Origin: Hyphomicrobiales bacterium | GTDB taxonomy: Bacteria > Pseudomonadota > Alphaproteobacteria > Rhizobiales > Rhizobiaceae | Assembly: GCA_900466005.1 (NCBI GenBank) | Contig: UEGQ01000004.1 | Span: 310,001-374,000, forward strand | Length of the DNA stretch: 64,000 nucleotides | Reading direction: 5' to 3' | In this document: piece by piece, positions 4,803-19,767 of the stretch | Layout of the letters: every line of letters begins with the position of its first letter | Numbering within the stretch: the stretch's first letter is position 1 | The notes under the pieces: model-generated | What the model saw: the letters and a program-made list of their open reading frames with translations, nothing else | What the model was told of the DNA's origin: nothing | Databases searched by the model: none | Made by a program: the position numbers and the translations under genes

Positions 4803-6494
4803 ATGAGACTTACACTTAAAGTGAAATTGGGAGCGACGTTCGCATTCATCGTCGCAATGTCTGCAGTCAGCATGTTCTTCGCCCTGCAGAACCTCGGGGC
4901 CCTCAACACCTCGATCAAGGATATCGTCGGGTTTGGCGCCAAGACGGTCATCACCACCAATCAGCTACTCACGGATGCTGTTAAAATTCAGCGCGATCTG
5001 CGTGAACACATCCTGAATACGGACGACAGTGAAATTAAGACTCTCGAAGAGCGGATTGCCGCCGCGCGAGGCAGGGTGCAGGATGAACTGCAGCAACTGA
5101 AGGAGCTCGCGGACGAACAGGACCTCGTACAGATCGCCGACTTCGAGGCGCTCTGGAACGAAATGCGCGGCATCAACGACAAGGTCCTCGAGCTTTCGCG
5201 CGTCAACCGCAATGAGGAGGCGGCCAACCTCGTCATGCGGGAAGCCCGACCGATCTGGACCAAGGTGCAAGACGCGCTGAACGCCTATGCGCAGGCACAG
5301 AACGAAGAGCTTGCCGGCCAGGTCCAGCAGAGTGCTGAACTTTATGCCTCCAGCCGCACGCTGCTGATCGGCCTTCTGGCGGTATCTTCGCTTATCGCTG
5401 TCGGCGCGGCCCTCTGGATCGTCCTCAGCATCACCAAGGCCGTGTCCGGCGCCGTCACCCTCGCCCGTGCAGTTGCCGACGGTGATCTGAATACGTCCGT
5501 CTCCGTCAAGTCGAACGACGAGATCAAGGATCTGGTCGACGCCCTCAACCAGATGGTTGCCAAGCTCAAGGAAGTGGTCGGCGAAGTGGTCTCCGCCACC
5601 CGCAACGTGGCTGCCGGCAGCCAGGAACTGTCGGCTGCGGCCGAGCAGTTGAGCCAGGGCGCAGTCGAACAGTCGTCCTCGACGGAGGAAGCTTCGGCAT
5701 CCGTCGAACAGATGGCCGCCAACATCAAGCAGAATGCCGACAATGCCGGCCAGACCCAGGCGATCGCCCGCCAAGCTGCCGTCGATGCCGAGACCTCCGG
5801 CAAGGCCGTGGGCGAAGCCGTCAAGGCCATGGAGACCATTGCCGAGAAGATCCTGATCGTCCAGGAAATCGCTCGCCAGACCGACCTGCTCGCCCTCAAC
5901 GCTGCCGTCGAGGCGGCCCGGGCCGGCGAACACGGCCGCGGCTTTGCCGTCGTCGCGTCCGAAGTACGCAAGCTCGCCGAACGCAGCCAGGCTGCCGCCC
6001 AGGAAATCTCCGGCCTTTCCGGCGATACCGTCAAGGCGGCCCAGTCGGCAGGCGAGATGCTCTCGAAGCTGGTCCCCGACATCCAGAAGACTGCGGAACT
6101 CGTGGCCGAAATCTCGGCGGCTTCCAACGAGCAGAACGCCGGCGCCAGCCAGATCAATGCGGCGATCCAGCAGCTCGACAAGGTGACCCAGCAGAACACC
6201 TCCGCCGCCGAGGAAATGTCCTCGACTTCGGAAGAGCTCGCCACCCAGGCCGAGCAGCTGCAGGCATCGATCAGCTACTTCCGCCTCGATGAGACGGCAG
6301 GCTCCTCCGCCCGCGCTGTGCGCCAGATGCAGCACGCGGCTCCGGAGCATTCGGTTGCCGGTCTGCAGAAGAAGGTGAAGGCCGCCGCCCCGCAGCTCGC
6401 CGCGACCCGGCAGTCGAAATCGAACGGCGGCTTCGCGTTCGATCTCGGGGACGCCGGAGACAAGCTCGACGCGGAATTCAAGCGCTCGGCCTGA
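4803..6494 (+). CDS. Methyl-accepting chemotaxis protein
   Basis: 563 residues. TM1 is about 10-30, followed by a periplasmic helical region (about 35-185) of the four-helix-bundle ligand-binding type, TM2 about 187-206, a HAMP domain, and the long coiled-coil signalling domain. The conserved tip lies near 353-396 ([20 protein letters not shown]). Gln/Glu-rich heptads on both sides supply likely methylation sites for CheR and CheB. The tail after the coiled coil is an Ala/Lys-rich linker and shows no NWETF-like CheR tether. It sits between the two cheW genes and is the only transmembrane receptor in the cluster, so it is probably its dedicated input. The ligand cannot be predicted. Confidence 0.95.
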
Positions 6495-6617
6495 TCCGTT
6501 CCGCCACCTTTCCGCCCGATGCCGACGGCACGGGCGGCCGCCTCTCCCCCCTTCTTTGCCAGTCTTTGGGGGGAGAGGCCGGACCGACGAACGACTTACA
6601 CGAAAGAAGCGTGCCCC

Positions 6618-7094
6618 ATGGCTGACATACGGCAATACGTGACCCTCGGCATCGCCGGCGAACTTCTCGGCGTGCCGGTGGAGCGGGTGAGAGAAATCCT
6701 CGAAATTCATCCGATTTCGCGACTTCCCCACGCTCCGCCCCATCTTCTCGGAATGATCGATGTGCGCGGTCAGGGCGTGCCGGTCATCGACCTGCGCCTG
6801 AAGCTCGGCTTTGAGAAGAGCGCCGACACGCCCGACACCCGCATCATCGTGCTCAACGTTCCGGTCGGCGAGCGCGAGCTTACCTTCGGCCTCAAGACGG
6901 ACCGGGTCTTCGAGGTCAGCATTCTCGATGAGGAGCAGCTCGACGCCCCGCCGGAGATCGGCGTCAAATGGCGCTCCGAATTCATCGCCGGGATTGGCCG
7001 CCGAAAGGGCAATTTCGTCACGGTTCTGGACCTCGGGCGCCTTTTCAGCTCGGGCGAGGCGATGCTGATTTCGTCGCCCGCACACGCCGCCTGA
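6618..7094 (+). CDS. cheW: Chemotaxis adaptor CheW (second copy)
   Basis: 158 residues. ATG 6618 was preferred to the upstream in-frame ATG at 6519. The CheW domain starts at once after 6618 (MADIRQYVTLGIAGELLGVP), GAAAGAAG lies just upstream, and the 33 extra residues resemble no CheW N terminus. Conserved core LLGMIDVRGQGVPVIDLRLK. The sequence differs clearly from the first CheW copy, so the two may contact different partners (CheA versus receptor, or the tandem-tip protein at 9201). Confidence 0.93.
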   Translation: MADIRQYVTLGIAGELLGVPVERVREILEIHPISRLPHAPPHLLGMIDVRGQGVPVIDLRLKLGFEKSADTPDTRIIVLNVPVGERELTFGLKTDRVFEVSILDEEQLDAPPEIGVKWRSEFIAGIGRRKGNFVTVLDLGRLFSSGEAMLISSPAHAA

Positions 7095-7176
7095 GGGCGG
7101 TTTCCTGAACCACGGGCCGCGAGCTGCTTGCGGCCGCCGCCGATCCCATCCCACTCCCACGCAATCGGACCTCCTG

Positions 7177-8073
7177 ATGTCTCAAGCCTTACTTCGCGTT
7201 ACAGAAACACCGGCCCGGACAGGACAGGACCGCCTCAGCGACGCCGATTTCAGCCGTATCGCGACGCTGATCGGCGGCCATGTCGGCATCAAGCTGCCGC
7301 CGGCCAAACGGCTGATGGTGGAGGGTCGCCTGCGCAAGCGGATGCGCAGCCTCAATTGCGCATCGCTCACCGACTACTGCCGGTACCTGTTCCACGAAAA
7401 CGGCCTCGAAAACGAACTGGTTCACGTCATTGACGCCGTCACCACGAACAAGACCGACTTCTTTCGCGAAAACGAGCACTTTGTCCTGCTGCGACAGAAG
7501 CTGATACCTTCGCTGACGGCACGACGCCCCGCGGGCGCGAAACCGCGGCTGAAGCTGTGGAGCGCCGCAAGTTCAAACGGCGCGGAAGCCTATACCATCG
7601 CCATGGTACTGGCCGATATGGTCGAACGCGGCGACGATTTCCAGTTCGCCATTCTCGGCACGGACATCTCTACGGAAATGCTCGCGGCGGGTAGGCAGGC
7701 CATCTACCCTTCTGAGATGGTCGCGCCCGTGCCGCTTGACATGCAGGAGCGGTACCTCATGCGCGGGCAGTCCGCCTCCTGGCACGGGGAGGTCCGTATC
7801 GTTCCCGAGCTCCGGCGGCTCGTGCGCTTTCAGCGCCTCAACCTCATGGAAGAAACCTATCCCGTCGACCGCGACGTCGACGTGATCTTCCTGCGTAACG
7901 TTTTGATCTATTTCGATAAACCAACGCAGGAAGCGGTGGTGTCGCGGCTCGTGCGCCATCTGCGCCCCGGCGGTTTCCTGATCCTCGGCCACTCGGAATC
8001 AATGATCGGCACGAACCTGCAGCTCAAACAGTGGGCGCCGGGTGTCTTCGAAAACACGTCAGGACTGAGGTAA
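7177..8073 (+). CDS. cheR: Chemotaxis protein methyltransferase CheR
   Basis: 298 residues. It has the N-terminal helical substrate domain (about 20-85) and the SAM-dependent methyltransferase domain. Motifs: WSAASSNGAEAYTIAM (normally close to WSAACSTGEEPYTIAM), ILGTDISTEML, and DVIFLRNVLIYFDK followed by LRPGGFLILGHSES. It methylates receptor glutamates using S-adenosylmethionine. The GEEPY segment of the SAM site is altered to GAEAY, unusual for CheR. The rest of the fold is intact, so activity is likely but the substitution merits notice. The next gene, cheB, is 6 bp downstream. Confidence 0.93.
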   Translation: MSQALLRVTETPARTGQDRLSDADFSRIATLIGGHVGIKLPPAKRLMVEGRLRKRMRSLNCASLTDYCRYLFHENGLENELVHVIDAVTTNKTDFFRENEHFVLLRQKLIPSLTARRPAGAKPRLKLWSAASSNGAEAYTIAMVLADMVERGDDFQFAILGTDISTEMLAAGRQAIYPSEMVAPVPLDMQERYLMRGQSASWHGEVRIVPELRRLVRFQRLNLMEETYPVDRDVDVIFLRNVLIYFDKPTQEAVVSRLVRHLRPGGFLILGHSESMIGTNLQLKQWAPGVFENTSGLR

Positions 8074-8079
8074 CATTCC

Positions 8080-9204
8080 GTGCCCGGCTTATCCCCCAGC
8101 AACCCGGCAGCAAAGATCCGTGTGCTGATCGTGGACGACTCCGCCGCGGTACGCCAAGCCCTTGCCGACATCATCAGCAGCGCGCCCGATCTCGAGGTGA
8201 TGGCGACCGCATCCGATCCCTACGTGGCGGTCGAGCGCATGCGCCATCAGGTTCCCGACGTCATTTTCCTTGACGTCGAGATGCCGCGCATGGACGGGCT
8301 CACTTTCCTGCGCAAGATCATGAGCCAGCGGCCGATCCCCGTCGTCATCTGTTCGTCACTGACCGAGGAGGGCTCGGACACCCTCGTGCAGGCGCTCGAG
8401 GCCGGAGCCGTCGACGTCATCACCAAGCCGCGATACGACACCGCCCATGCCCTTGCCGAGTCGCAGATGCGGATCTGCGACGTCGCGCGTGCCGCGGCGC
8501 ACTCCCGCATCGGTAACCGCCGTCGCCCTGCCCCGCCCGTGAAGGCCGAGGCGAAGCTCAGCGCGGATGCCATTCTGCCCGCCATGGCTCCGGTCCGCGC
8601 AAATGGCGTGCTGACCGACAGGATCATCTGCATCGGAGCCTCGACCGGCGGGACCGAGGCGTTGCGGCAGCTGCTTGGCGAGCTCCCTGCTGACGCCCCG
8701 GGGATCGTCATCGTCCAGCACATGCCGGAAAAGTTCACGGCAGCCTTCGCGCGGCGCCTCGACAGCCTATGCGCCATCTCCGTAAAGGAGGCCGCCCATG
8801 GCGACGCTGTCGCCGCCGGCCAGGCGCTCATAGCGCCCGGTAATCGCCACATGCTGCTCGAGCGCGTCGGCAAGCACTATCGCGTGATGATCAAGGATGG
8901 CCCGCACGTCTCCCGCCACCGTCCGTCCGTCGACGTCCTTTTCCGCTCCGCCGCCCAGAGCGCCGGGGCGAACGCGACCGGTGTCCTTCTGACGGGCATG
9001 GGGGACGACGGCGCTCATGGGCTTCTGGAGATGCGAACCGCAGGTGCCGTGACCATCGCCCAGGACGAGGCGAGCTGCGTCGTCTTCGGCATGCCCAAGG
9101 AAGCAATCGCACTCGGCGGTGTCCAGCGGGTCCTGCCGCTCGACCGCATTGCAGACGACATCATCAACGGGACCCGTCCCAGATCCGCGGCAGGCGCAGC
9201 ATGA
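8080..9204 (+). CDS. cheB: Chemotaxis response regulator / protein-glutamate methylesterase CheB
   Basis: 374 residues, GTG start with GAGG about 10 nt upstream. Receiver domain at 12-125 with phospho-Asp in [13 protein letters not shown]. The methylesterase domain has the catalytic Ser in [10 protein letters not shown], the His in VQHMPEKF and the Asp in [11 protein letters not shown]. It demethylates or deamidates receptor glutamates when phosphorylated by CheA, giving adaptation together with CheR. Overlaps the following gene by 4 nt, which ties that unusual protein to the pathway. Confidence 0.95.
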
Positions 9205-11069
9205 GACACCACAATACCGCCATCGCACTCCGGCCGACGCCGGACGAAACGGGCGCGGGCGATCTGGCGAGCCGGCTCATCGACCTCGCGCGTGAACTCG
9301 CCGAGCCAAGAAAGGCGATCGAAAAGACCTTCCTCGAAATGGGCGAGCATCTCGGAACGTGCGCCGGGCTGCTGAACGAGATATCGAACCTCCACCAGGC
9401 GATGCCGGCCGAACTCGAAAGCGCCGATTTTCTTGCCGCGGCGGCGAGCCTCGAAACGGTACGGGAGCAACTGGGCGAACTCACCGCCTCACATGCGGAC
9501 GAACAGGAGCACATCGCGCAGCTCACGGCGATGGCGAGCAGCCTGGACACGCCTGTCGCGGGACTTCGCAATGCCGTTCGCGCCATCCGCTTCGTCGCCG
9601 TCAACGCGCGTATCGCCGCAGCCGGCATCTTAAGCGACCAGGTGGATCTCGGCGCCTTCACGATCGACATGGTCGAACTCGCGCAGAGCGTGGAAAACGC
9701 GATCACGACGCTCGGCCAGGCGCACCGGAGATTTGCCGAGACGCTGTCGGAGGCCCATCTCGCGAACGCCGCACTCTCGCGACGCCACGGCGACACCACG
9801 AACACCATCTCCGGCCGCATTCGCGAGCATCTGGCAACCATCGTCGAACACCGCACGAGCGCACAGGCGCGGGCACAGGAACATGCGTCGCTGACGCTGC
9901 AGATCAGAAGTCGGATCGGCGCGGCGATCGCCGGATTGCAGACGGGCGACGTCACTCGTCAGCGCATCGAGCATATCGAACTAGCGCTGGACCTCCTTGC
10001 AGGGCGCCTGCCCGATGTTCCTGTTGCGGATGCAACCTTTGCGGCCGTCTGCAATTTGCAGGTGAGCCAGCTTGACGAGACCATGGAGGATTTCGCCCAG
10101 AAGATCGGCGACATCATCCATTCGCTCCGGCAGCTTTCCCTCGATGCCTCGACGGTGCTCCGCTCCGGCAGTGAAGAAGCGGAGATACTCCTGTCGTCCG
10201 GCGGCACGGCGCTGCACGGCATGGTCGACGACCTGCGGGAAATCTCTTCCCTTTTCAGGGACTTCCGGGACACTCGCGGCAAGACCGAGGCGGCCGTCAA
10301 CCACGTCGCCGAGGCTCTCGAGGCCATGCTCGATCGCGTTCGTGCAATCACCGACATCGAGCACCAGATCCATCTTCTCAGTCTCAACACCGCCATCCAG
10401 TGCGGCAAGCTCGGAACGGAAGGCCACGCGCTCCGCGTCATCACCCACGATCTCCGTGAACTGGCCGGACAGACGGCGACCGCGGCGGGAACAATTGTCA
10501 CCGCGCTCGACGGGGCTGGCGATATCGCGCGCGCCCTGATGAGAGCCCGCTCAACGGGCCCCGCCGAGGGCATCGCGGCGATCGAGCAGGACGCCAATGC
10601 GGCGATCGGTCTCTTCGAAGCGGTCATTGAGCGCTTGAGCGAGCGGGCGACCGGCATGGCGGCAAGCGGTCCGCGAGCGCTCCATGAACTCGCTGCCGCG
10701 GCCGAAAGCGCCGTCGAACGCCAGGACTTTGCTGACCGCTGGAGCAACGCACGCAAGGAACTGGCAGTGCTTGCGTCATCGGCGCTCGCGCAGGATGAGG
10801 GACGGCACCTTGACGTCGATTTCCTTTGCCGATTGCGCACGAGCTACACGATGGAAGCGGAACGCCGGATCTATGACGGGCTCTTTGGCCATATCGCCGA
10901 AAGGAGCGTTTCGAGCCAGCACAGGCGGAAGCGACGGGTGAACTCGATGACATCCTGTTTTGAAGCGACACCAGTCAGAGATCCCGAAGGCGGATCGCAG
11001 GACCGAAGCGGCAGGAGCGGCTCCGGCGCGATCTCTTCGAGATTACCGGCGACGATAGCCGGAAAGTGA
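9201..11069 (+). CDS. Soluble chemoreceptor-like protein with two degenerate signalling tips
   Basis: 622 residues, almost wholly predicted helix and coiled coil, with no signal peptide, transmembrane or HAMP segment. Two regions resemble the hairpin tip of chemoreceptors. The first lies about 127-165 ([15 protein letters not shown]...VELAQSV). The second lies about 381-425 ([18 protein letters not shown] followed by [17 protein letters not shown]). Between them is [15 protein letters not shown], a motif common in receptor-like signalling proteins. Both tips depart from the strongly conserved receptor sequence. The gene overlaps the cheB stop and precedes the GGDEF-EAL gene by 28 bp. It may be a cytoplasmic array component or a pathway modulator; this is inference from context. 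Confidence 0.7.
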
Positions 11070-11097: not shown

Positions 11098-13710
11098 ATG
11101 ACCAAATGCCAAGCCATGTCCGCGAATGCCTGTGGGTGCGACGCAGCCGCCGCCCCACCGACGTGCAGGGACGTCAGCGGCCTCGCCAGATGCCTCGGCG
11201 ACTACGCGCGACTTCTGGGCGAGCGGACGCTGGAGCTGGACGCGGCATCCTGTCCGGGTCTTCCGTTTCAGGATCAGCTCGCCTCGTTGGCCGAAATGAT
11301 GTCGGCCGCTCTTTTCGCCGCCCGCATAGGGGGCGGCGAGCTCTCCTTCGTCTACGCAAGCGAGAAGATCGCGGATGCCATCGGTCCCTTGCCGAAGGAT
11401 ATCGGGCGGATTGCCGAGCTCTTGTTCGCCCGGTGCCATCCGGACGATCAGCCGGTGATGCGGGCCTGCCTGACGGCGTCCGCCCGCACCCTCGGTCCCT
11501 GCAGCACGGAAATACGCATCCTGCATCCCGGCAAGGGTGAGAGACAGCTCGAAATCAAGGCTGTCCCCCAACGCCAGCCCGACGGCACCGTTGTCTGGAT
11601 CGGCATGATGAGCGACGTGACCGACGCTCGGAAGGCAGCACGGGAACTGGACGAAACCAACGTCCGGCTCCTGAGCGTACTGCGAACCATTCCCGACATG
11701 GTCTGGCTGAAGGATACGGCAGGCACCTATACGATGTGCAATCACGCCTTCGAACGCCTGAACTGCAAGACCGAGGCGGAGATCGTCGGCAAGACCGACT
11801 TCGATCTTTTCGAACCCGAGCTTGCGACCTTCTTCGTGCAGAAGGACAGGGAGGCCATCGAGGCCGGCAAGGTGTGCCTCAACGAAGAATGGGTGGTTTA
11901 TCCCGACACCGGCGAACACGTGTTGCTGGAGACCCGAAAGGTGCCGATCTTCGACTCATCCGGCGCGGCAATCGGCATACTCGGCGTGGCCCGTGACATC
12001 ACCAAGCGAAAGCACATCGAGGAGATGCTCGCCAAGCGCGAGCAGGAGTTCCGAACGCTTGTCGAACACTCGTCGGACCCGATCCTGCGCTATGGGCCAG
12101 ACCTGTGCTGCCGGTACGCCAATCCCGCGGCTGGCGCCTTGCTCCGGACGCAGGCGGACACCCTCCTCGGTATCCGGCCTTCTCAACTGCCCGTTCGCGA
12201 AAACGGGGAAATCTTCGAACGGTTCCTTTCGGATGTGCTGACGACCGGCGGCGAGCAGGAATTCGAGGCCGTCTGGAAGGACGAGGCGGGCAACCGGTTC
12301 TGCCATCTCGTCAAACTGACCCCCGAGTTCAACACCGAGGGCGAAGTCACCAGCGTGCTCGCCGTCGGCCGCGACATCAGCGAGCTTCACACCTCCCGTC
12401 AGAAGATCCGGCAGATCGCCTATTACGATCAGCTCACGCAATTGCCCAATCGAGCGCTGTTCAACGAACGCCTGCGCCGAATGATCTCGGATGCGGCGAT
12501 TTCCGGACGAATGGCCGGCGTGATGGTCATCGACCTTGATCGGTTCAAGACGGTCAACGACACCATGGGACATCCCGCGGGTGACGCCCTGCTGCATGGG
12601 GTGGCGCAAAGGCTCTCCTCCTGTGTGCGCGCCGTCGACACGGTCGCCCGGCTGGGAGGAGACGAGTTCGCCGTCCTCGTGCCGGATATCCGCTGCAGAA
12701 ACGATCTCGAGCAGATTGCCGAGCGCATCCTGCGCAAGTGCGACAAGCGTTTCGTCGTGCAGGGGAAGGAAGTCTTCGTATCGTGCAGCGTCGGCATCGC
12801 GATGTCGCCCGACCACGGCACCGAACCAGACGAGCTGGTGCAGTACGCGGATACGGCCCTCTATTCGGCGAAGGGCGACGGTCGAAACGCCTTCCGTTTC
12901 TATACGAAGGAGCTGACCGCCCACGCCCGCGAGCGCCTGATGCTGGAACTGGATCTCCGCCATGCGGTGCGGAGGGGCGAAATGTGCCTGCATTATCAGC
13001 CGAAGGTGTGCCTGAAGAGCGGTCGGCGCTCCGGCGCCGAGGCTCTGTTGCGGTGGAATCATCCCCGCCTCGGCATGATGTCACCGGACCGGTTCATGGC
13101 AGTGGCGGAAGACACCGGCCTCATCGTCGACATCGGCGCGTGGGTGCTCCGCGAGGCCTGCTTTGCGGCGGCGGAATGGAACGGACCCGACAGGCCGGTC
13201 CAGAAGGTGGCGGTCAATCTGTCCGTGCGGCAATTCCAGACCCGCGGGCTGCTGGCACTGGCCGAGAGCGTTCTCGAGGAGACGGGTTGCCGCGCGGAAT
13301 GGATCGAACTGGAGATTACCGAAAGTCTTCTGCTGGAGGAGGATGAGCACGTTCTGGAAACGCTGACCGCACTCAGGAAAATGGGGTTCACCCTCGCCAT
13401 CGACGATTTCGGTACCGGCTACTCGGCGCTCAGCTATCTCACCCGATTCCCGATCGACGTCCTGAAGATCGACCGTTCGTTTGTCTCCCGCACGACGACC
13501 GACAGCCGTTCGACGAACCTGTTGAAAGCCATTCTCTCCCTCGCCCACAGTCTCGATCTCGAGGTCGTGGCCGAAGGCGTCGAAACCTGCGAGCAGGCTG
13601 CGATCCTCAGGAACTTCCACTGCCAGCTGGCGCAAGGTTACCTGTTCAGCCGTCCCGTGGCGAAAGATGTGCTCGAAACGCTCCCCGACGGCTTTCCGCT
13701 TGCGAGTTAG
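11098..13710 (+). CDS. PAS-PAS-PAS-GGDEF-EAL cyclic-di-GMP turnover protein
   Basis: 870 residues. ATG 11098 was chosen because GGGGGAG lies 8 nt upstream (a GTG at 11077 would overlap that site). Three PAS-like sensor domains cover about 60-185, 190-310 and 320-430. The diguanylate cyclase domain has an intact GGDEF near 520 (RLGGDEFAVL). The phosphodiesterase domain has an intact EAL near 646 (GAEALLRWNHP), plus NLSVRQF, ELEITES, IDDFGTGYSAL and VAEGVET. Both enzymatic activities therefore look possible. No transmembrane segment. Its position 28 bp behind the last che-linked gene suggests co-transcription and a c-di-GMP branch of the chemosensory pathway. Confidence 0.92.
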   Translation: MTKCQAMSANACGCDAAAAPPTCRDVSGLARCLGDYARLLGERTLELDAASCPGLPFQDQLASLAEMMSAALFAARIGGGELSFVYASEKIADAIGPLPKDIGRIAELLFARCHPDDQPVMRACLTASARTLGPCSTEIRILHPGKGERQLEIKAVPQRQPDGTVVWIGMMSDVTDARKAARELDETNVRLLSVLRTIPDMVWLKDTAGTYTMCNHAFERLNCKTEAEIVGKTDFDLFEPELATFFVQKDREAIEAGKVCLNEEWVVYPDTGEHVLLETRKVPIFDSSGAAIGILGVARDITKRKHIEEMLAKREQEFRTLVEHSSDPILRYGPDLCCRYANPAAGALLRTQADTLLGIRPSQLPVRENGEIFERFLSDVLTTGGEQEFEAVWKDEAGNRFCHLVKLTPEFNTEGEVTSVLAVGRDISELHTSRQKIRQIAYYDQLTQLPNRALFNERLRRMISDAAISGRMAGVMVIDLDRFKTVNDTMGHPAGDALLHGVAQRLSSCVRAVDTVARLGGDEFAVLVPDIRCRNDLEQIAERILRKCDKRFVVQGKEVFVSCSVGIAMSPDHGTEPDELVQYADTALYSAKGDGRNAFRFYTKELTAHARERLMLELDLRHAVRRGEMCLHYQPKVCLKSGRRSGAEALLRWNHPRLGMMSPDRFMAVAEDTGLIVDIGAWVLREACFAAAEWNGPDRPVQKVAVNLSVRQFQTRGLLALAESVLEETGCRAEWIELEITESLLLEEDEHVLETLTALRKMGFTLAIDDFGTGYSALSYLTRFPIDVLKIDRSFVSRTTTDSRSTNLLKAILSLAHSLDLEVVAEGVETCEQAAILRNFHCQLAQGYLFSRPVAKDVLETLPDGFPLAS

Positions 13711-13727
13711 CCGATACGGTCTCAGTC

Positions 13728-14363
13728 CTACCAGCGCAGAAGCCGTCGTCCGACCAAAGCGCCCAGAAGAACGACGAACGCGATGGCCAGCATGTACCAG
13801 GTGGCGCCGAAGAGCGGGCTGTCGTCCGGGCAGTGCCAGGCATAGATCGCCGCCGCGATCGAGCCGGAGGCAAGGCCCGCCGCCGCACCCGCGAAGGTCG
13901 GATTGTCGGGCGCGCCCCGCTTGAGTGCGGCCATCAGGCCGACCATCGGAGCGGCAGAAAGCACCGGGATGAAGAAGAGGCAGAAAGCGGCGTTTTCACC
14001 GATCAGTTTCCGGCCCCAGGTGCTTGCCGGCGATACGTAGAGCTCGGCGCCGACCGCGCCTGCAAGCAGCAGAAGAGGCAGAAGCAACGCCGACAACTGC
14101 ACGCCCAGCGAGGCGCCCGGCCGGCCGACGCGGAAGACGAGCACGGTCGAAAGGACAGCGAGCAGCAAGGTCATGCCGATCTTAAAGGCAACCCGCGCGG
14201 TCTCGATCGCCGTCGCAATATCGTCGCGGAAACCGATCGTTGCGAGCATCAGCAGAAGCGAGGCGCAGACCCCCGCGGCGACGGCCAGCCACATGGCGCG
14301 GCCGAGCGGGCGGACGCTCGGCGCGTCCGCCGCGATCAGGGAGATGAGTTCACTCGTCTTCAT
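13728..14363 (-). CDS. nrsF: Anti-sigma factor NrsF-like (DUF1109) membrane protein
   Basis: 211 residues with about six hydrophobic helices and a short cytoplasmic N terminus (MKTSELISLIAADAPSVRPL). This matches the DUF1109/NrsF family, which sequesters the ECF sigma factor SigF at the membrane. ATG 14363 was chosen: GGAG stands about 8 nt upstream, and the start lies inside the 3' end of the sigma gene (14-nt overlap), indicating coupled translation. Two Cys residues in the membrane part (AAFCLFF and WHCPDD) are positioned as in NrsF proteins where Cys residues have been linked to metal sensing. That role here is inference. Confidence 0.88.
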   Translation of the reverse strand: MKTSELISLIAADAPSVRPLGRAMWLAVAAGVCASLLLMLATIGFRDDIATAIETARVAFKIGMTLLLAVLSTVLVFRVGRPGASLGVQLSALLLPLLLLAGAVGAELYVSPASTWGRKLIGENAAFCLFFIPVLSAAPMVGLMAALKRGAPDNPTFAGAAAGLASGSIAAAIYAWHCPDDSPLFGATWYMLAIAFVVLLGALVGRRLLRW

Positions 14364-14916
14364 CGACACCACTCCGGTATAGCTTCGCCAGCGTCTTCAG
14401 CGCCCGATGCAGCGCGACGCGCACGGCCCCTTCCGACATGTCGAGCCGGCCTGCCATTTCGCGGGCATCCTTACCCTGGAGCGACAGGCGGACGATTTCG
14501 TCCTGCGGCGGCCGCAACCGCGCAATCAGCCGTTCCGCATCGCCGAGGTCCGTCGTTGCGTCGGCAGTCTCGTTTGCGGTCAGCATGTCCATCACGTCCT
14601 CGATCGGCACATTCGTTCTCCTGCCCCGCCGCCTCAAGGCGTCGATCAGCTTGTTGCGGACGATCGCCGAAAGCCACGGACCGATCGGCCGGTCCGGATC
14701 CCATGTGCCGCGCTTCAGATGCACGGCGAGCAGCACTTCCTGCACCACGTCTTCCGCCTCGCCCTTCGGCGCGCCGAACCGGCCGCATCCGTTGAGCGCC
14801 AGCGTCCTGAGATGTGGGGTCACGCCCGTCAGGAACGCCTGATAGGCGCGGCCGTCGCCGGCGTTCGCCGCCCGCATCCATTCGGCCCATTGCTCTTCTC
14901 GCGTTCTCGTCGACAA
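14350..14916 (-). CDS. sigF: ECF RNA polymerase sigma factor, SigF type
   Basis: 188 residues. Region 2 contains EDVVQEVLLAVHLKRGTW, and region 4 ends in a helix-turn-helix (MAGRLDMSEGAVRVALHRAL). The start is TTG at 14916, supported by the family-typical N terminus TREEQWAEWMRAANAGD. The nearest ATG would remove that segment. The stop lies inside the anti-sigma gene. The predicted promoter (14932-14957) places transcription start only about 10 nt before the TTG, so the mRNA would have a very short leader. Expected role, from family knowledge and the divergent bufferin operon: transcription of copper-stress genes. Confidence 0.9.
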   Translation of the reverse strand: MSTRTREEQWAEWMRAANAGDGRAYQAFLTGVTPHLRTLALNGCGRFGAPKGEAEDVVQEVLLAVHLKRGTWDPDRPIGPWLSAIVRNKLIDALRRRGRRTNVPIEDVMDMLTANETADATTDLGDAERLIARLRPPQDEIVRLSLQGKDAREMAGRLDMSEGAVRVALHRALKTLAKLYRSGVDEDE

Positions 14917-14931
14917 GCCTTCTCATTCCCC

Positions 14932-14957
14932 TACGCACCGGCCCGGGCCTTTATTAC
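14932..14957 (-). promoter_or_regulatory. SigF-type ECF promoter for sigF-nrsF
   Basis: On the minus strand GTAATA (14957-14952) is followed after 16 nt by CGTA (14935-14932). Spacing and element sequence match the promoter facing the other way at 15057-15082. This predicts autoregulation of sigF. Confidence 0.65.
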
Positions 14958-15056
14958 AGGCAGAAAGAAAAAAATCGTCAAATTTCCTCCCATCCCGGTC
15001 AATTTCTCGTGCACTGCCGGAAGACAAGCCCGGGCAACAAAACAATCTCGATGTCT

Positions 15057-15082
15057 GTAACAAATCGACGAACGGCACCGTA
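15057..15082 (+). promoter_or_regulatory. SigF-type ECF promoter for the bufferin operon
   Basis: GTAACA (15057-15062), 16 nt, then CGTA (15079-15082). SigF promoters in Caulobacter have GTAAC at -35 and a CG-starting -10 at this spacing. Transcription should begin near 15089, about 44 nt before the first precursor gene, which has GGAGACAG as ribosome site. Confidence 0.7.
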
Positions 15083-15132
15083 GTCCCTTTTGCAGCCGAT
15101 CCTCGGCCAGCACCCTCAAAGGAGACAGAACG

Positions 15133-15399
15133 ATGAAAAAGTCTATCGCAACACTTGCACTGACCGGCGCGATTGCTTCGGCTCTCGCATCGATTGCCGT
15201 ACCGGCGTCCGCCGCCGAAACCACGGAGAAGTGCTACGGTATCGCCCTCAAGGGCCAGAACGACTGCGCCGCCGGCAAGCACGACTGCGCCGGCCATCAG
15301 ACGATCGACTACGACAAGGCATCCTTCAAGCTCGTGCCGGCCGGCACCTGCACGACGATCAAGACGCCCGCCGGCATGGGTTCCGTCACCCCGGCCTGA
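15133..15399 (+). CDS. bufA1: Bufferin-type precursor peptide 1 (DUF2282)
   Basis: 88 residues. A Sec signal peptide of about 26-28 residues (cleavage after ASA near residue 28) precedes a short mature part with exactly four Cys: [14 protein letters not shown], then HDCAGH, then PAGTC. This is the DUF2282 pattern. Such proteins have been described as copper-binding, post-translationally modified peptides, in which a DUF692 iron enzyme with a DUF2063 partner converts core Cys residues to thiooxazoles. The gene lies first in the operon behind the SigF-type promoter. A His-containing segment (GKHDCAGH) separates Cys 2 and Cys 3 and is not shared with the second precursor. Confidence 0.88.
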
Positions 15400-15445
15400 T
15401 GGACGTCCCGACGTCAGCAACAATCTACGACAAGGAAGTCCCGAC

Positions 15446-15727
15446 ATGAATCTGCTTACCCCCACGCTTCTTGCAGCCTCCGTCGCCGCCGCCATTGCTG
15501 CCGCGTCCGCTACCCCGGCCGCGGCCGCCGACGCGAAGGAAAAATGCTACGGCATCGCCCTCAAGGGCCAGAATGACTGCGCCGCCGGCCCCGGCACCAC
15601 CTGTGCCGGAACATCCAAGGTCGACTACCAGCAGAATGCCTGGAAGCTGGTCCCGGCCGGAACCTGCGAGACGATCAAGACGCCCGGTGGTCACGGCACG
15701 CTGACCCAGGGCCCTGCACCCGTCTGA
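15446..15727 (+). CDS. bufA1: Bufferin-type precursor peptide 2 (DUF2282)
   Basis: 93 residues, 46 bp after the first precursor, with AAGGAAG ahead of the ATG. Signal peptide about 1-27 (ending AAAA), then four Cys in the same layout: [24 protein letters not shown]. The [14 protein letters not shown] block and the LVPAGTC end are identical or nearly identical to precursor 1. The middle linker differs ([11 protein letters not shown]), as does the tail (longer, Pro-ending). It looks like a tandem duplication that has diverged in the loop between Cys 2 and Cys 3. Upstream in-frame starts within precursor 1 are rejected, since they would put a long non-secretory segment before the signal peptide. 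Confidence 0.87.
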
Positions 15728-15809
15728 GCCGAGCCTCCCTGTCCCTCGCCGTCATGCACGAAGGCACCGGCGAGGGACGGGTACCGTCGCCACAAAAGGA
15801 GACCGACCG

Positions 15810-16664
15810 ATGCGAGCCTCACGACTACCGCCCCGTCCCGGCGTCGGTTTCAAGCCGGAGCACTTTCATGAGATCGACGCGGCCCCGCAGCCCCTCGGCT
15901 TCTTCGAGGTACACGCGGAGAACTACATGGGTGCCGGCGGGCCGCCGCATGCCCGCCTCGGCAAGCTCAGGGCCGAATACGCGCTCTCGATCCACGGTGT
16001 CGGCCTGTCGATTGGCGCAACGCAGCCGCTCGACCGCGATCACCTTGCGCGCCTCAGGACGCTCTGCGACCGCTACGAACCGGAGAGTTTCTCCGAGCAT
16101 CTCGCATGGTCGAGCCACGGCGAGAATTTCTACAACGATCTCCTTTCCCTCCCCTACACGGACGCGACGCTCGCGACCGTCGCCGAACACGTCTCGCAGG
16201 TACAGGAAGCGCTCGGGCGCCAGATGCTGCTCGAAAACCCGGCGACCTATCTTCTGTTCGAGGAGAGCACGATCGAGGAGACGGCATTCCTCGCCGAAGT
16301 GGTCCGCCGCACGGGTTGCGGTCTCCTGCTCGACATCAACAACGTCTTCGTCGCCGCGACCAACCACAATCTCGATGCGCGGGACTACCTCGACCGCTTT
16401 CCGCTCGCCCATGTGCGCGAAATTCACCTGAGCGGCCATTCGGCAACCGTCGACGATCATGGCGCTCCGCTGTTGATCGACAGCCACGATACGCCGGTCC
16501 ACGATCCGGTCTGGGCCCTCTACGCGCGGACGATCGCCCGCACCGGACCCGTCGCGACCCTCATCGAATGGGACAACGACGTGCCGGACTGGGCAACCCT
16601 GCGCGCCGAGGCGGAAGCGGCGGGGCACATCCTCGATCGCGCCGCGCTGGCCAGAGCGTCGTGA
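15810..16664 (+). CDS. bufB1: DUF692 multinuclear non-heme iron oxidase, bufferin maturation enzyme
   Basis: 284 residues, TIM-barrel protein of the DUF692/MbnB family, with AAAAGGAG upstream. Candidate metal ligands are in their usual positions: H in [11 protein letters not shown] and H in FSEHLAW, E in LLENPAT, D and N in LLDINNVF, H in EIHLSGH, and D and H in [14 protein letters not shown]. Relatives use iron and oxygen to modify Cys residues of peptide substrates. With two four-Cys precursors directly upstream and a DUF2063 partner directly downstream, it is the expected core-modifying enzyme. No signal peptide, so modification occurs in the cytoplasm before export. Confidence 0.9.
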
Positions 16665-16671
16665 GGTTGTC

Positions 16672-17436
16672 ATGACGTCACAAGCCATCTTCTCAGCCGC
16701 GCTGGTCTCGACCGATCCCTCCCCTCCCGAAGGACTGACGGCTTGGAACGGCACGCCGGACCGCCGCTTCGGCGTCTACCGCAACAATGTCATGGTCGGG
16801 CTGACGGCGGCCCTGCAGAGCCGTTTCCCGGTCGTGGAAAAGCTTGTCGGCGCGGATTTCTTCGCCGCCATGGCACGCGCGTTCATCGCCGCTCATCCAC
16901 CCCTGAGCCCGCTGCTGCTCGCCTACGGCGACGACCTGCCGGCCTTCATCGAAGGCTTCGAGCCGGCAGCATCGCTGCCCTATCTTGCCGATGTCGCGCG
17001 GCTGGAGATCGCCCGCTCCCGCGCCTATCACGCGGCGGATGCCGAGCCTCTCGAACCGGCTACACTGGCCGCAGTCCCGCCGGAAAGGCTGGTGTCACTG
17101 CGTTTCCGCCCTCACCCGTCGCTCGCGATCCTGCGTTCGTCCCACCCGGTCGTCACCATATGGGCAATGAACGCAGGTGAGGCAGAAGCTGAGCCGATTG
17201 CGGCATGGACTGGCGAGGATGCCGTCGTCGTCCGGCCGGAAATGCTCGTCGAAGTGCGGCGATTGCCGCCCGGCGGCGCCGTCTTTCTGCAGAGCCTCGC
17301 CGACGGCGTCCCGCTCGGCGAAGCGGCGGCCCGGGCTCTGGAAGCAAGCGCTGATTTCGATCTTCCTGCCAATCTCGCCGGCCTCTTCGAAGCCGGTCTC
17401 TTCACGGCCATAGAGGCCCCGGAGGAATTGCCATGA
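16672..17436 (+). CDS. bufC1: DUF2063 protein, partner of the DUF692 enzyme
   Basis: 254 residues. The N-terminal ~100 residues carry the DUF2063 signature (FGVYRNNVMVGLTAALQSRFPVVEKLVG and an LPYLADVARLE segment). The C-terminal ~100 are a mixed alpha/beta part. In bufferin- and MbnC-like systems this protein binds the precursor leader and forms a complex with the DUF692 enzyme. The ATG is 7 bp after the bufB1 stop, and its own stop overlaps the DoxX start by 4 nt. No catalytic motif is evident, consistent with a recognition role. Confidence 0.87.
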   Translation: MTSQAIFSAALVSTDPSPPEGLTAWNGTPDRRFGVYRNNVMVGLTAALQSRFPVVEKLVGADFFAAMARAFIAAHPPLSPLLLAYGDDLPAFIEGFEPAASLPYLADVARLEIARSRAYHAADAEPLEPATLAAVPPERLVSLRFRPHPSLAILRSSHPVVTIWAMNAGEAEAEPIAAWTGEDAVVVRPEMLVEVRRLPPGGAVFLQSLADGVPLGEAAARALEASADFDLPANLAGLFEAGLFTAIEAPEELP

Positions 17437-17930
17437 CATTCGTCGCATCTGCCGTCGCGCTCCATACGCGGGCGGTCTCTCTCGCCGAGATGATCCCCCA
17501 CTCGTTTCTTGCGCTCCTCGCCCGGGCCTCGATCGCTGCGGTCTTCTGGCAATCGGGCCAGACCAAGGTCGACGGCTGGATGGTCACCGACAGCGCCGTC
17601 TACCTCTTCGAGAACGAATACCGGCTGCCGCTGATCGACCCTTGGCTCGCCGCCCATCTCGCAGCGGCGGCGGAGCATTTCTTTCCCCTGCTGCTGGTCG
17701 TCGGCTTCCTCAGTCGTCTGTCGGCACTCGCGCTCCTCGCGATGACGGCGGTCATCCAGATCTTCGTCTATCCGGGCGCCTGGCCGACGCATGGAACATG
17801 GGCGGTCTGCCTGCTGGTGATCGTCATCCGCGGCCCGGGCGTCGTTTCGCTGGACCACTTGCTCGGGCGATGGTGGCACGGAAGTGCAGTGCCGCCGGCG
17901 ATGGCAGGCAATCGGCCTCACATGCGCTGA
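17433..17930 (+). CDS. bufD1: DoxX-family membrane protein of the bufferin operon
   Basis: 165 residues with about four membrane helices and the DoxX features RASIAAVFWQSGQTKVDGW near the start and YPGAWPTHGTWA in the last third. Overlaps the DUF2063 gene (ATGA). DoxX proteins commonly close bufferin operons. Function is not settled, with a redox or quinone-linked membrane role suggested for the family. The last ~15 residues are hydrophilic. Transcription meets the DUF2182 gene coming from the opposite side 31 bp later. Confidence 0.82.
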   Translation: MTFVASAVALHTRAVSLAEMIPHSFLALLARASIAAVFWQSGQTKVDGWMVTDSAVYLFENEYRLPLIDPWLAAHLAAAAEHFFPLLLVVGFLSRLSALALLAMTAVIQIFVYPGAWPTHGTWAVCLLVIVIRGPGVVSLDHLLGRWWHGSAVPPAMAGNRPHMR

Positions 17931-17961
17931 GAGCCAGGGACACGAGGAATGGATCGCTAGT

Positions 17962-18786
17962 TCACATGACGAGCAGGCGCAGACCTGCCGCCAGCAGGCC
18001 GATCCCCGCCACCCGCGAGAGCAGGCGCCCCGCCGGCATGAGCTTTTCCGCGAGGGCGAAGACGGCGAGCGCAGCGATCCACACGACATTCATCACGCCG
18101 CCGACGAAGAGGAGAGCCATCAGCGCCCAGCAGCAGCCGAGGCAATAGACCCCGTGCGTGGCGCCCATCTTGAAGGCTCCGGTCGCGCCGCGGCGAAAGC
18201 CGCCGAAACGCTGAATGAACAGCAGGGGCGACTGGCATTGTGAAAGGCAGGCGTGCTTCAGCGGCAGCCACTGGTAAATCCCGGCTGCGACCAGAATCAC
18301 GCCGCCCAGAACGTTGTTCGTGCTCGCCATGTCCGGACTGAGCAGTGTCAGCCGTTCCAGCGCCCATTGGGCCGTCGTTGCCGCGAGAGCAAACCCGCCC
18401 CACACAGCCAGGTATCCGGCCGCGAACCAACCGGTTGCGGCAAAGGGCTTGGCAGACGCGGCGGCCATCCTGCCCGTGCGTGCGTAGATGAGAATCATCG
18501 GCGCCGCCGACGGCGTCATCATGCCGATCATCATCACCGTCCACATGACGAACATCAAAACGAAATCGCCGGCCGTCCACGCCTGCTGCGCGGGCGCCAT
18601 CGCCATCTCGAAGCCGTTCGAGATCATGCGATAGCCCATCATGTCCATGCCGCCCATGGTCATGCCCGCAGCAAGCCGCAGGATATAGGCCCATGCAAGC
18701 ACGGTAAGGGCCGCGATGGACGTTGCGACGATCAGTCCATCGCGCCGCAGCACGGCCTTGAGTGGTGTATCCGTCACCGTGTTCAA
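17962..18786 (-). CDS. DUF2182 predicted metal-binding integral membrane protein
   Basis: 274 residues, six or seven hydrophobic helices. The N-terminal part is Met-rich (GMTMGGMDMMGYRM, then FVMWTVMMIGMMTPS). The C-terminal half has Cys clusters (HACLSQCQSP and VYCLGCCWALM). These are DUF2182 hallmarks and fit soft-metal binding such as copper. The start is TTG at 18786, overlapping the stop of the upstream DUF1326 gene as TTGA, so it should be translated by coupling. DUF1326 and DUF2182 are often neighbours; no biochemical function is established to my knowledge. Placement beside a copper-peptide operon supports, but does not prove, a metal role. Confidence 0.85.
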   Translation of the reverse strand: MNTVTDTPLKAVLRRDGLIVATSIAALTVLAWAYILRLAAGMTMGGMDMMGYRMISNGFEMAMAPAQQAWTAGDFVLMFVMWTVMMIGMMTPSAAPMILIYARTGRMAAASAKPFAATGWFAAGYLAVWGGFALAATTAQWALERLTLLSPDMASTNNVLGGVILVAAGIYQWLPLKHACLSQCQSPLLFIQRFGGFRRGATGAFKMGATHGVYCLGCCWALMALLFVGGVMNVVWIAALAVFALAEKLMPAGRLLSRVAGIGLLAAGLRLLVM

Positions 18787-19418
18787 TGGACGACACCGCT
18801 TTCGGTCATGTTCAACCGCGAGAAGTGCGCGTGCGAGTCATTCAGCGAAAGCGCCAGAGGTCCCTTTGTCTCGCCCCAGCCTCGCCCAACCTCGCACACA
18901 TCGTATTCGAAGCCCTGCGGCAGGTTGATCCGCGCACGATGCGCGTCACCGGTGACAGGGTTGCGGATCGGTTCTCCGCGCGCCTCGACCCAGCCCGGAA
19001 CGGCCACCCGCGCGGTGCGACCGTCGACGTCGATCTCGAAATCGATCTTTGCGAAGACCGGTTCGTGGACCTTTTCAAAAGTCGCCGAAAAGACCTGGAA
19101 AAAGGTGGCGCCGGGCTCGGTATCCAGTCCGCTCATGATGCGCAACAGCGATTCGCGCTGTTCGGGCGATGCACGCTCGTCGACGATCGGCACCACCTGC
19201 CCTCTGCCCTCATGAATGGCGCCGGGCCAGGAGGCGATGATGCCTATCGTCAGTCCGCCGAGCTTCGTATCCCCGTGATATCCCTCTTCGATATCGACGA
19301 AGCCGACAGCGTCACAGCCGCCTTTGGTGGGACGAGCATTGAACTGGCACGGACACCCGTAGTCACAGTTGCAGTGGATGAATTCGCGACCTTTGATGGC
19401 CCATTTTGTCTCGGTCAT
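18783..19418 (-). CDS. DUF1326 protein with N-terminal Cys cluster
   Basis: 211 residues. ATG 19418 was chosen for AAAAGGAGGAGACA directly upstream. An extension to 19610 would add 64 residues without family resemblance. The N-terminal motif FIHCNCDYGCPCQF (four Cys) followed by GGCDAVGFVDIEEGYHGD is the DUF1326 signature. No signal peptide or membrane helix. Its four-base overlap with the DUF2182 gene marks a two-gene operon. The compact CxCxxxCxC arrangement suggests metal binding or redox chemistry; the function is unknown. Confidence 0.83.
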   Translation of the reverse strand: MTETKWAIKGREFIHCNCDYGCPCQFNARPTKGGCDAVGFVDIEEGYHGDTKLGGLTIGIIASWPGAIHEGRGQVVPIVDERASPEQRESLLRIMSGLDTEPGATFFQVFSATFEKVHEPVFAKIDFEIDVDGRTARVAVPGWVEARGEPIRNPVTGDAHRARINLPQGFEYDVCEVGRGWGETKGPLALSLNDSHAHFSRLNMTESGVVH

Positions 19419-19767
19419 TGTCTCCTCCTTTTCTCGGTTTACATGTCCTGGCGGACCGCTCCCCTGGCGGTATGGTGTATGACGTTGAGCTGGCCATATG
19501 TGTCCTTCAGATCCAAGAGGATCGGATCGGACGCTGGTTCGTGGATCGTGCTCGACAGGACGCGCAACACGCTCCCACGCTGGTTGGCAGGTTTTTGCCG
19601 TAAACAACAAGTCTACACCTTTCGCGGTGGTCGCAGAAGTCGCCCGAAAGCATTATCTAATATATGCTGCAATTGACTTCATGCTGCCGGCGCGCCGCCG
19701 TACCTGCTCCTGATCGGCGTGCGCAATCCTGACTGCTTCCACCCTCCGGAACCGGAAGCGTCGAACG
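19419..19767. other. 349-bp intergenic region
   Basis: Lies between the start of the DUF1326 gene and the end of the DUF982 gene, both on the minus strand, so it should hold the DUF1326 promoter. The segment around 19650-19680 is AT-rich. No SigF-type GTAAC-N16-CG element, EcfG box or open frame with a ribosome site was found. Confidence 0.4.

Follow-up and report, generated by a model that had tools for sequence, protein, structure and literature searches.

A bufferin operon under predicted SigF control carries a conserved pair of precursor subtypes ahead of a single maturase gene

A 64-kb stretch of DNA (positions 310,001 to 374,000 of contig UEGQ01000004.1; hereafter the window) from the 5.0 Mb genome of a soil bacterium related to Ciceribacter (42 contigs, rated 99.97% complete) contains an operon in which two adjacent DUF2282 genes, encoding the bufferin precursors A and B, precede a single gene for an MNIO (DUF692) enzyme and one for its DUF2063 partner. 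Bufferins chelate copper via thiooxazoles derived from cysteine, and in the Buf1 class modification falls on the central cysteines, with a disulphide joining the first to the last (PMC12452194; papers are cited here for the passages that bear on these systems). We find that A and B are stable subtypes of bufferin precursor, and that the cores of both are under purifying selection. The explanation that best accommodates the evidence, to which we give a probability of roughly 0.72, is a SigF-controlled Buf1 operon whose one MNIO-DUF2063 complex would modify both peptides.

The assignment to Buf1 draws on both the peptides and the genes that follow them. Precursor A (15133-15399, + strand, 88 residues) and precursor B (15446-15727, +, 93 residues) score 81.6 and 93.6 bits against Pfam DUF2282 (PF10048; cut-off 22.4), and they fall short of the Buf2 (BufA2) model NF050166 (29.8 and 23.2 bits against 60). 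Each has four cysteines, the conserved number in Buf1 (PMC12452194). The MNIO (15810-16664, +) matches Pfam PF05114 at 348.4 bits, passes NCBIfam MNIO_BufB (NF050167; 380.5 bits against a cut-off of 310) and aligns to the solved structure 3bww (E 1.6e-37), which makes it the bufferin maturase BufB. It is followed by the DUF2063 partner, of BufC/PME-type 1 (16672-17436, +; Pfam 86.6 bits, cut-off 27.2), and the gene order is thus that of a Buf1 operon. The final gene, for a DoxX family membrane protein (17433-17930, +; Pfam DoxX 64.8 bits), overlaps the end of the DUF2063 gene by 4 bases. Across the whole genome there are exactly two DUF2282 matches, both at this locus, and this MNIO is the sole match to PF05114. 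The original prediction, made from the letters of the window, had placed two DUF2282 peptides at 15133 and 15446 ahead of one DUF692/DUF2063 pair, and its gene positions and families agree with these searches as a whole. A sequence search for solved structures, run for the DUF2063 protein and precursor B and not for A, returned none for either; AlphaFold models of A and B, built from alignments of 24 and 22 rows, were discarded at mean pLDDT (predicted local distance difference test) values of 42.7 and 46.9.

The two peptides share [14 protein letters not shown] and the terminal PAGTC, and by eye the N-termini of both resemble Sec signals. They part company, as had been anticipated, between the second and third cysteines: in A (cysteines at 34, 45, 52 and 73) this loop is AAGKHD, of six residues, with His50 two before Cys52, whereas in B (34, 45, 53 and 74) it is AAGPGTT, of seven residues and without histidine. 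Further differences lie in the signal-like N-terminus and in the Cys3-Cys4 stretch. The constancy of these differences emerges from a set of comparison loci comprising the best 80 of 452 MNIO relatives, the window and four further regions; among these 80 relatives the nearest named one is from Ciceribacter lividus (Rhizobiaceae), at 98% identity. The precursor calls in 84 loci are 48 A-B, 29 single B, four single A-like, two B-B and one broken A plus B; L010 gave no call, and its contig stops 148 bases before the MNIO gene. Once two repeats are removed (L112 and L113, which duplicate L011 and L053), the A-B pair is present in 46 of 82 distinct loci, a proportion that is not a frequency because most loci were picked by MNIO similarity. 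In every A-B locus A comes first and B second. All four cysteines are invariant in both types across the 46 loci, the A core being 40 residues long with the invariant pattern CYG.A.KG.NDC.AG.H.C........D..SFKLVP.G.C and the B core 41 residues long with [18 protein letters not shown]...D.Q.N.WKLVP.G.C. The signal-like N-termini also separate the types, split-half profiles being right for 96 of 96 (two repeats counted). As for the His-flanked GKHDCAGH segment singled out by the original prediction, its first histidine, two residues before Cys3, is kept in 46 of 46 distinct tandem loci, but that of CAGH is frequently Lys or Met in relatives.

With the ratio of nonsynonymous to synonymous substitution rates (dN/dS) taken over pairs with dS of 0.1-1.2, the median for the core is 0.138 in A (870 pairs) and 0.068 in B (829 pairs), and both cores are hence under purifying selection. 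Over the first 15 core codons likeness is the same within and between types (A-B 0.88, A-A 0.87, B-B 0.88), and from Cys3 onward the core is type-specific (A-B 0.68, A-A 0.82, B-B 0.83). In the shared half A-B identity is 0.884 within genomes against 0.871 between them (1 of 2000 permutations as high). However, the other half shows a small effect too (0.679 against 0.670; 11 of 2000 permutations), so that kinship or base composition may account for the excess, and we therefore do not claim gene conversion between A and B. Were A and B redundant copies serving gene dosage, with a functionally meaningless loop difference, then one would expect such neighbours either to become alike or to drift; instead, in all 46 distinct tandem loci the two loops and the two Cys3-Cys4 stretches have stayed different, with A always ahead of B. 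We regard the dosage explanation as unlikely, even though B-B tandems with one loop class exist (L066 and L114) and the conserved hairpin described below suggests an excess of precursor.

In genomes sampled by taxonomy, two adjacent DUF2282 matches occur in 16 of 60 from the genus (window counted; any match in 43) and in 4 of 199 from the family (any match in 104), the latter being the window, G084, G100 and G058, with G058 of the B-B kind. One genus genome has a partial DUF2282 match covering positions 2-21 only (G534:C3:277578-277637), perhaps a remnant. A different family of the phylum has a locus where 243 bases separate two DUF2282 segments whose cores are identical (L122:1261-1504), which makes it a double-domain or tandem B-B bufferin. 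At the level of the phylum (299 genomes, 63 with DUF2282), the Cys2-Cys3 loops fall into a seven-residue class, mainly PGTTC-like, His-x-Cys classes whose loops have six or eight residues, and a minor six-residue class that lacks the histidine of the His-x-Cys motif (7 rows). The His-x-Cys loop of A is therefore not exotic, for it is found in other Buf1 bufferins of this sample, and A looks like a B-type framework that acquired such a loop. In a core tree computed without the loop, 31 of 32 A cores are in one fork (SH-aLRT, the Shimodaira-Hasegawa-like approximate likelihood ratio test, of 89, under the starred level), which sits among the B-type cores and apart from the TATHSC and PGHSC types. 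This tree has just 44 columns, stars mark 13 of its 218 inner branches, and the counts by label are imprecise, as the A-type rows of the genus sample carried the label H6.

The tree of the MNIO, rooted at its midpoint, relates these peptides to their enzyme. One clade (support 98/85; 65 rows in total) holds all 48 A-B loci, 12 single-B loci, three single-A loci (Labrys) and two unlabelled rows; outside it are 17 single-B rows, both B-B rows and the A-like L115. Since A-B, B-only and A-only loci share this clade, one MNIO lineage goes with A alone, B alone or both. The starred branches mean that the A-B label must have changed four times or more, and the tree, being compatible with one gain followed by losses as well as with several gains, does not decide between them. 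These data also bear on the alternative that only one precursor, probably B, is modified, with A serving as an unmodified metal-binding peptide or a decoy, or being lost. Such a view could appeal to the tighter core of B (dN/dS 0.068 against 0.138), to the B-only loci, which are not rare in the A-B clade (12 of 65 rows), and to Rhizobium sp. G21, in which the precursor A gene is split across two frames (L004:2661-2952), by decay or sequencing error, next to a B gene with an intact core. It is nevertheless distinctly unlikely in our estimate: A holds all four cysteines and is under clear purifying selection, its Cys1-Cys2 half is as similar to that of B as to that of other A peptides, and in Labrys, within the same MNIO clade, an A-type precursor is the sole peptide found. 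On these comparisons, the modification of both A and B by one MNIO-DUF2063 complex is most likely.

Nested inside an A-B group of the MNIO tree is L054, from Agrobacterium vitis, in which the 5' part of the precursor gene is A-like in DNA (26-28 of 30 per block to the A gene of L048 against 12-20 of 30 to its B gene, over the first four blocks) and the remainder is B-like (24-26 of 30 to the B gene against 16-24 to the A gene). This is clearly a natural chimera, in which a B core bears an A signal sequence, the two joined through the shared segment, and it is the only clear fusion. Fusion was rejected as a general origin of B-only loci, because 21 of 24 B-only loci read in the genus sample bear a different signal sequence; accordingly, these loci are tentatively taken for a separate operon lineage. 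When scored with a set from which L012 was left out, the signal is nearer A than B in 14 of the 17 B-only rows outside the A-B MNIO clade, and the A-like signal may be the older state. Preliminary results mentioned in PMC12452194 place the signal peptide within the recognition sequence.

On the other side of the operon, and facing away from it, lie sigF, for an extracytoplasmic function (ECF) sigma factor (14350-14916, - strand; Pfam Sigma70_r2 and r4_2; NCBIfam NF009165 at 244.4 bits, cut-off 198; listed with a TTG start, the true start being uncertain), and nrsF, for a membrane anti-sigma factor (13728-14372, -; Pfam NrsF 182.1 bits against 26.8). The mirrored GTAAYA-N16-CGTA promoters proposed at the outset are indeed in place: pattern scanning recovers GTAATA-N16-CGTA ahead of sigF-nrsF (14932-14957, -) and GTAACA-N16-CGTA ahead of the bufferin operon (15057-15082, +). 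The pattern GTAAYN17CGTA has exactly these two occurrences in the window, one before each transcription unit, with a mean of 0.04 in 100 window shuffles, none of which had two sites. Allowing one mismatch to GTAAYA-N16-CGTA adds a third window site at 1130-1155, which is at chance level (mean 0.46). Genome-wide, GTAAYR-N16-CGTA occurs three times, two of them at this locus, and the reversed control pattern 22 times; the third match precedes an integrase-looking open reading frame (judged without a family search) and was taken as chance. We then compared 66 loci with sigF facing a DUF2282 gene (the window, 63 relatives, L112 and L113), with a spacer of 15-17 and a -10 element of CGTA, CGAA, CGTT, CGTC or CGAT. 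Every one of the 66 has a site adjoining the estimated start of sigF, and 64 have an operon-side site near the first precursor start, such that 64 of 66 loci have both, as opposed to 1 of 3300 mononucleotide shuffles under the same rules. Both units are thus preceded by the GTAAC-type -35 and CG[AT]A -10 elements of a SigF-NrsF system, and, given their conservation here and the like motifs in Caulobacter and Sinorhizobium meliloti, the mirrored promoters are genuine and of a known type. In NrsF itself Cys131 and Cys181, whose importance was demonstrated in Caulobacter (PMC3511200), are retained by 64 of 64 aligned rows (window counted; matches of 170 residues or shorter excluded). With 95.9 bits against the cut-off of 300 of NCBIfam NF042994, the protein is a relative of NrsF rather than an equivalog by that model.

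A further conserved element is a hairpin between the precursors and the MNIO gene (15738-15781, +; arms 15738-15751 and 15768-15781), with a fold z of -3.42 and 0 of 200 shuffles as good; the segment 15725-15812, which takes in the 82 bases separating B from the MNIO gene, folds at -39.3 kcal/mol. A perfect stem of at least 8 pairs is present in 57 of 69 precursor-MNIO gaps (40-130 bases, window in and repeats out) as against 2.8% of shuffles (custom swaps that keep dinucleotides), and in 1 of 43 A-B gaps. Among seven stems compared, those of the window and Ciceribacter lividus are similar and the remaining five differ from these two. As TTTT occurs anywhere in only 12 of the 69 gaps, most of these hairpins are not classical terminators. 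We infer that the hairpin stabilises or processes the message, raising precursor over enzyme. An Rfam scan of 13500-18200 matched no family.

Putting these elements together, we posit that metal stress, most likely copper, would act on NrsF, whose conserved cysteine pair is thought to face the periplasm, thereby freeing SigF to transcribe both sigF-nrsF and the bufferin operon from the two divergent promoters. A and B would be made from a single message, with the hairpin behind B keeping the precursor message above that for the enzyme. The cytoplasmic MNIO and its DUF2063 partner would then modify Cys2 and Cys3 of both, and the products would be exported to bind copper in the periplasm. That the operon might instead serve another metal, or thiol or oxidative stress, is suggested by related systems that answer chromate and cadmium (PMC3511200) and by the related gig operon, which answers gold and silver besides copper (PMC8224329). 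We consider this very unlikely, given that the characterised Caulobacter Buf1 binds copper (PMC12452194), that the Caulobacter SigF regulon, including a DUF2282 gene, is copper-induced (PMC8224329), and that the sigF mutant is copper-sensitive with no added sensitivity to dichromate or cadmium (PMC3511200, PMC8224329). The single MNIO gene, the conservation of both cores and the SigF-dependence and copper-induction of the related Caulobacter operon support the original prediction in its main parts, namely that one enzyme has two potential products in a bufferin operon predicted to be controlled by SigF; the operon class, however, is not new.

Several observations weigh against a SigF-controlled Buf1 operon in which both peptides are modified. 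The DUF2063 protein scores 43 with NCBIfam HvfC (cut-off 142) and the DoxX protein 48.4 with HvfX (cut-off 80), so that these two and NrsF are all under NCBIfam equivalog cut-offs. The operon-side promoter was not found in L029 and L039 in the 66-locus scan. At the stem threshold 12 of 69 gaps are without a hairpin, and the fold-energy test is weaker than the stem test because just 46 of 84 precursor-MNIO gaps reach z < -2, with 38 missing it (mononucleotide shuffles). In the core tree one A row (L057, Kaistia) groups with B rows, and one seven-residue row (L177) with A rows. The Discussion of PMC12452194 raises the possibility that, where several precursors occur, modification is confined to a subset, and promoter fusions of the orthologous S. 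meliloti system are silent to H2O2, Cd and chromate (PMC6180224). Expression, mass or metal data for the organism were not found, no search by organism name having been made.

A more ambitious, and in our opinion doubtful, proposal is that A and B are a purpose-built pair by which one enzyme complex yields two copper buffers of different character. The thiooxazole ring forms with the residue preceding the cysteine. This residue is Asp before Cys3 of A and Thr in B, which has no histidine in its loop; the A product, with this Asp and a His two before the modified Cys3, may take Cu(II) or bind differently. If so, A and B together would widen the buffered range of copper, and the His-x-Cys loop known from other bufferins would have arisen anew in a lineage with the PGTTC loop, so that one operon could hold both types.

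Elsewhere in the neighborhood, two genes convergent to the bufferin operon (17962-19610, -) encode a PpoB2/DUF2182 'copper chaperone' and a DUF1326 protein; in the comparison of 85 loci, Ciceribacter lividus (L003) alone joins the window in having them beside the operon. At 4803-11066 there are chemotaxis-like genes (methyl-accepting chemotaxis protein, CheR and CheB), followed by a PAS-GGDEF-EAL protein adjoining nrsF.

Finally, earlier publications cover bufferins and their role with copper, control by SigF/NrsF, and tandem Buf1 precursors. What is new here, by comparison, is the conserved two-subtype pair with its natural single and chimeric relatives. The loop subtypes, their fixed order, the chimera and the hairpin are not described in the parts of PMC12452194 consulted, which exclude its supplements; nor did we meet the A/B subtypes in the parts of the literature searched, including PMC13097082 and PMC12538549, though we do not claim their absence from print. 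The closest parallels are threefold. First, in Caulobacter vibrioides sigF-nrsF likewise stands beside a DUF2282-MNIO-DUF2063-DoxX operon (CC3254-CC3257), and NrsF has the Cys131/Cys181 pair; its SigF promoter is GTAACC-N16-CGAA as opposed to GTAACA/GTAATA and CGTA in the window, and its operon has one precursor where that of the window has two (PMC3511200). Second, the Sinorhizobium meliloti rpoE7-ecfR7/SMb20530-20527 locus likewise has ECF sigma/anti-sigma genes divergent from a DUF692-DUF2063 operon, each side with a predicted RpoE7 promoter, but a single gene is listed before the DUF692 gene, in contrast to the two of the window (PMC6180224). Third, tandem precursor genes as well as sigma/NrsF genes are documented in Buf1 biosynthetic gene clusters (Antoine et al. 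2025, PMC12452194), whose Discussion states as a question whether one MNIO-partner complex serves several bufferin precursors. Kept as it is in many related bacteria, the A-B pair is a good natural case for this question of one enzyme and two copper buffers: its clade supplies A with B, A or B singly and a signal/core chimera, in each case beside a related enzyme and for the most part with this promoter pair, which makes the question testable with a few small genes.

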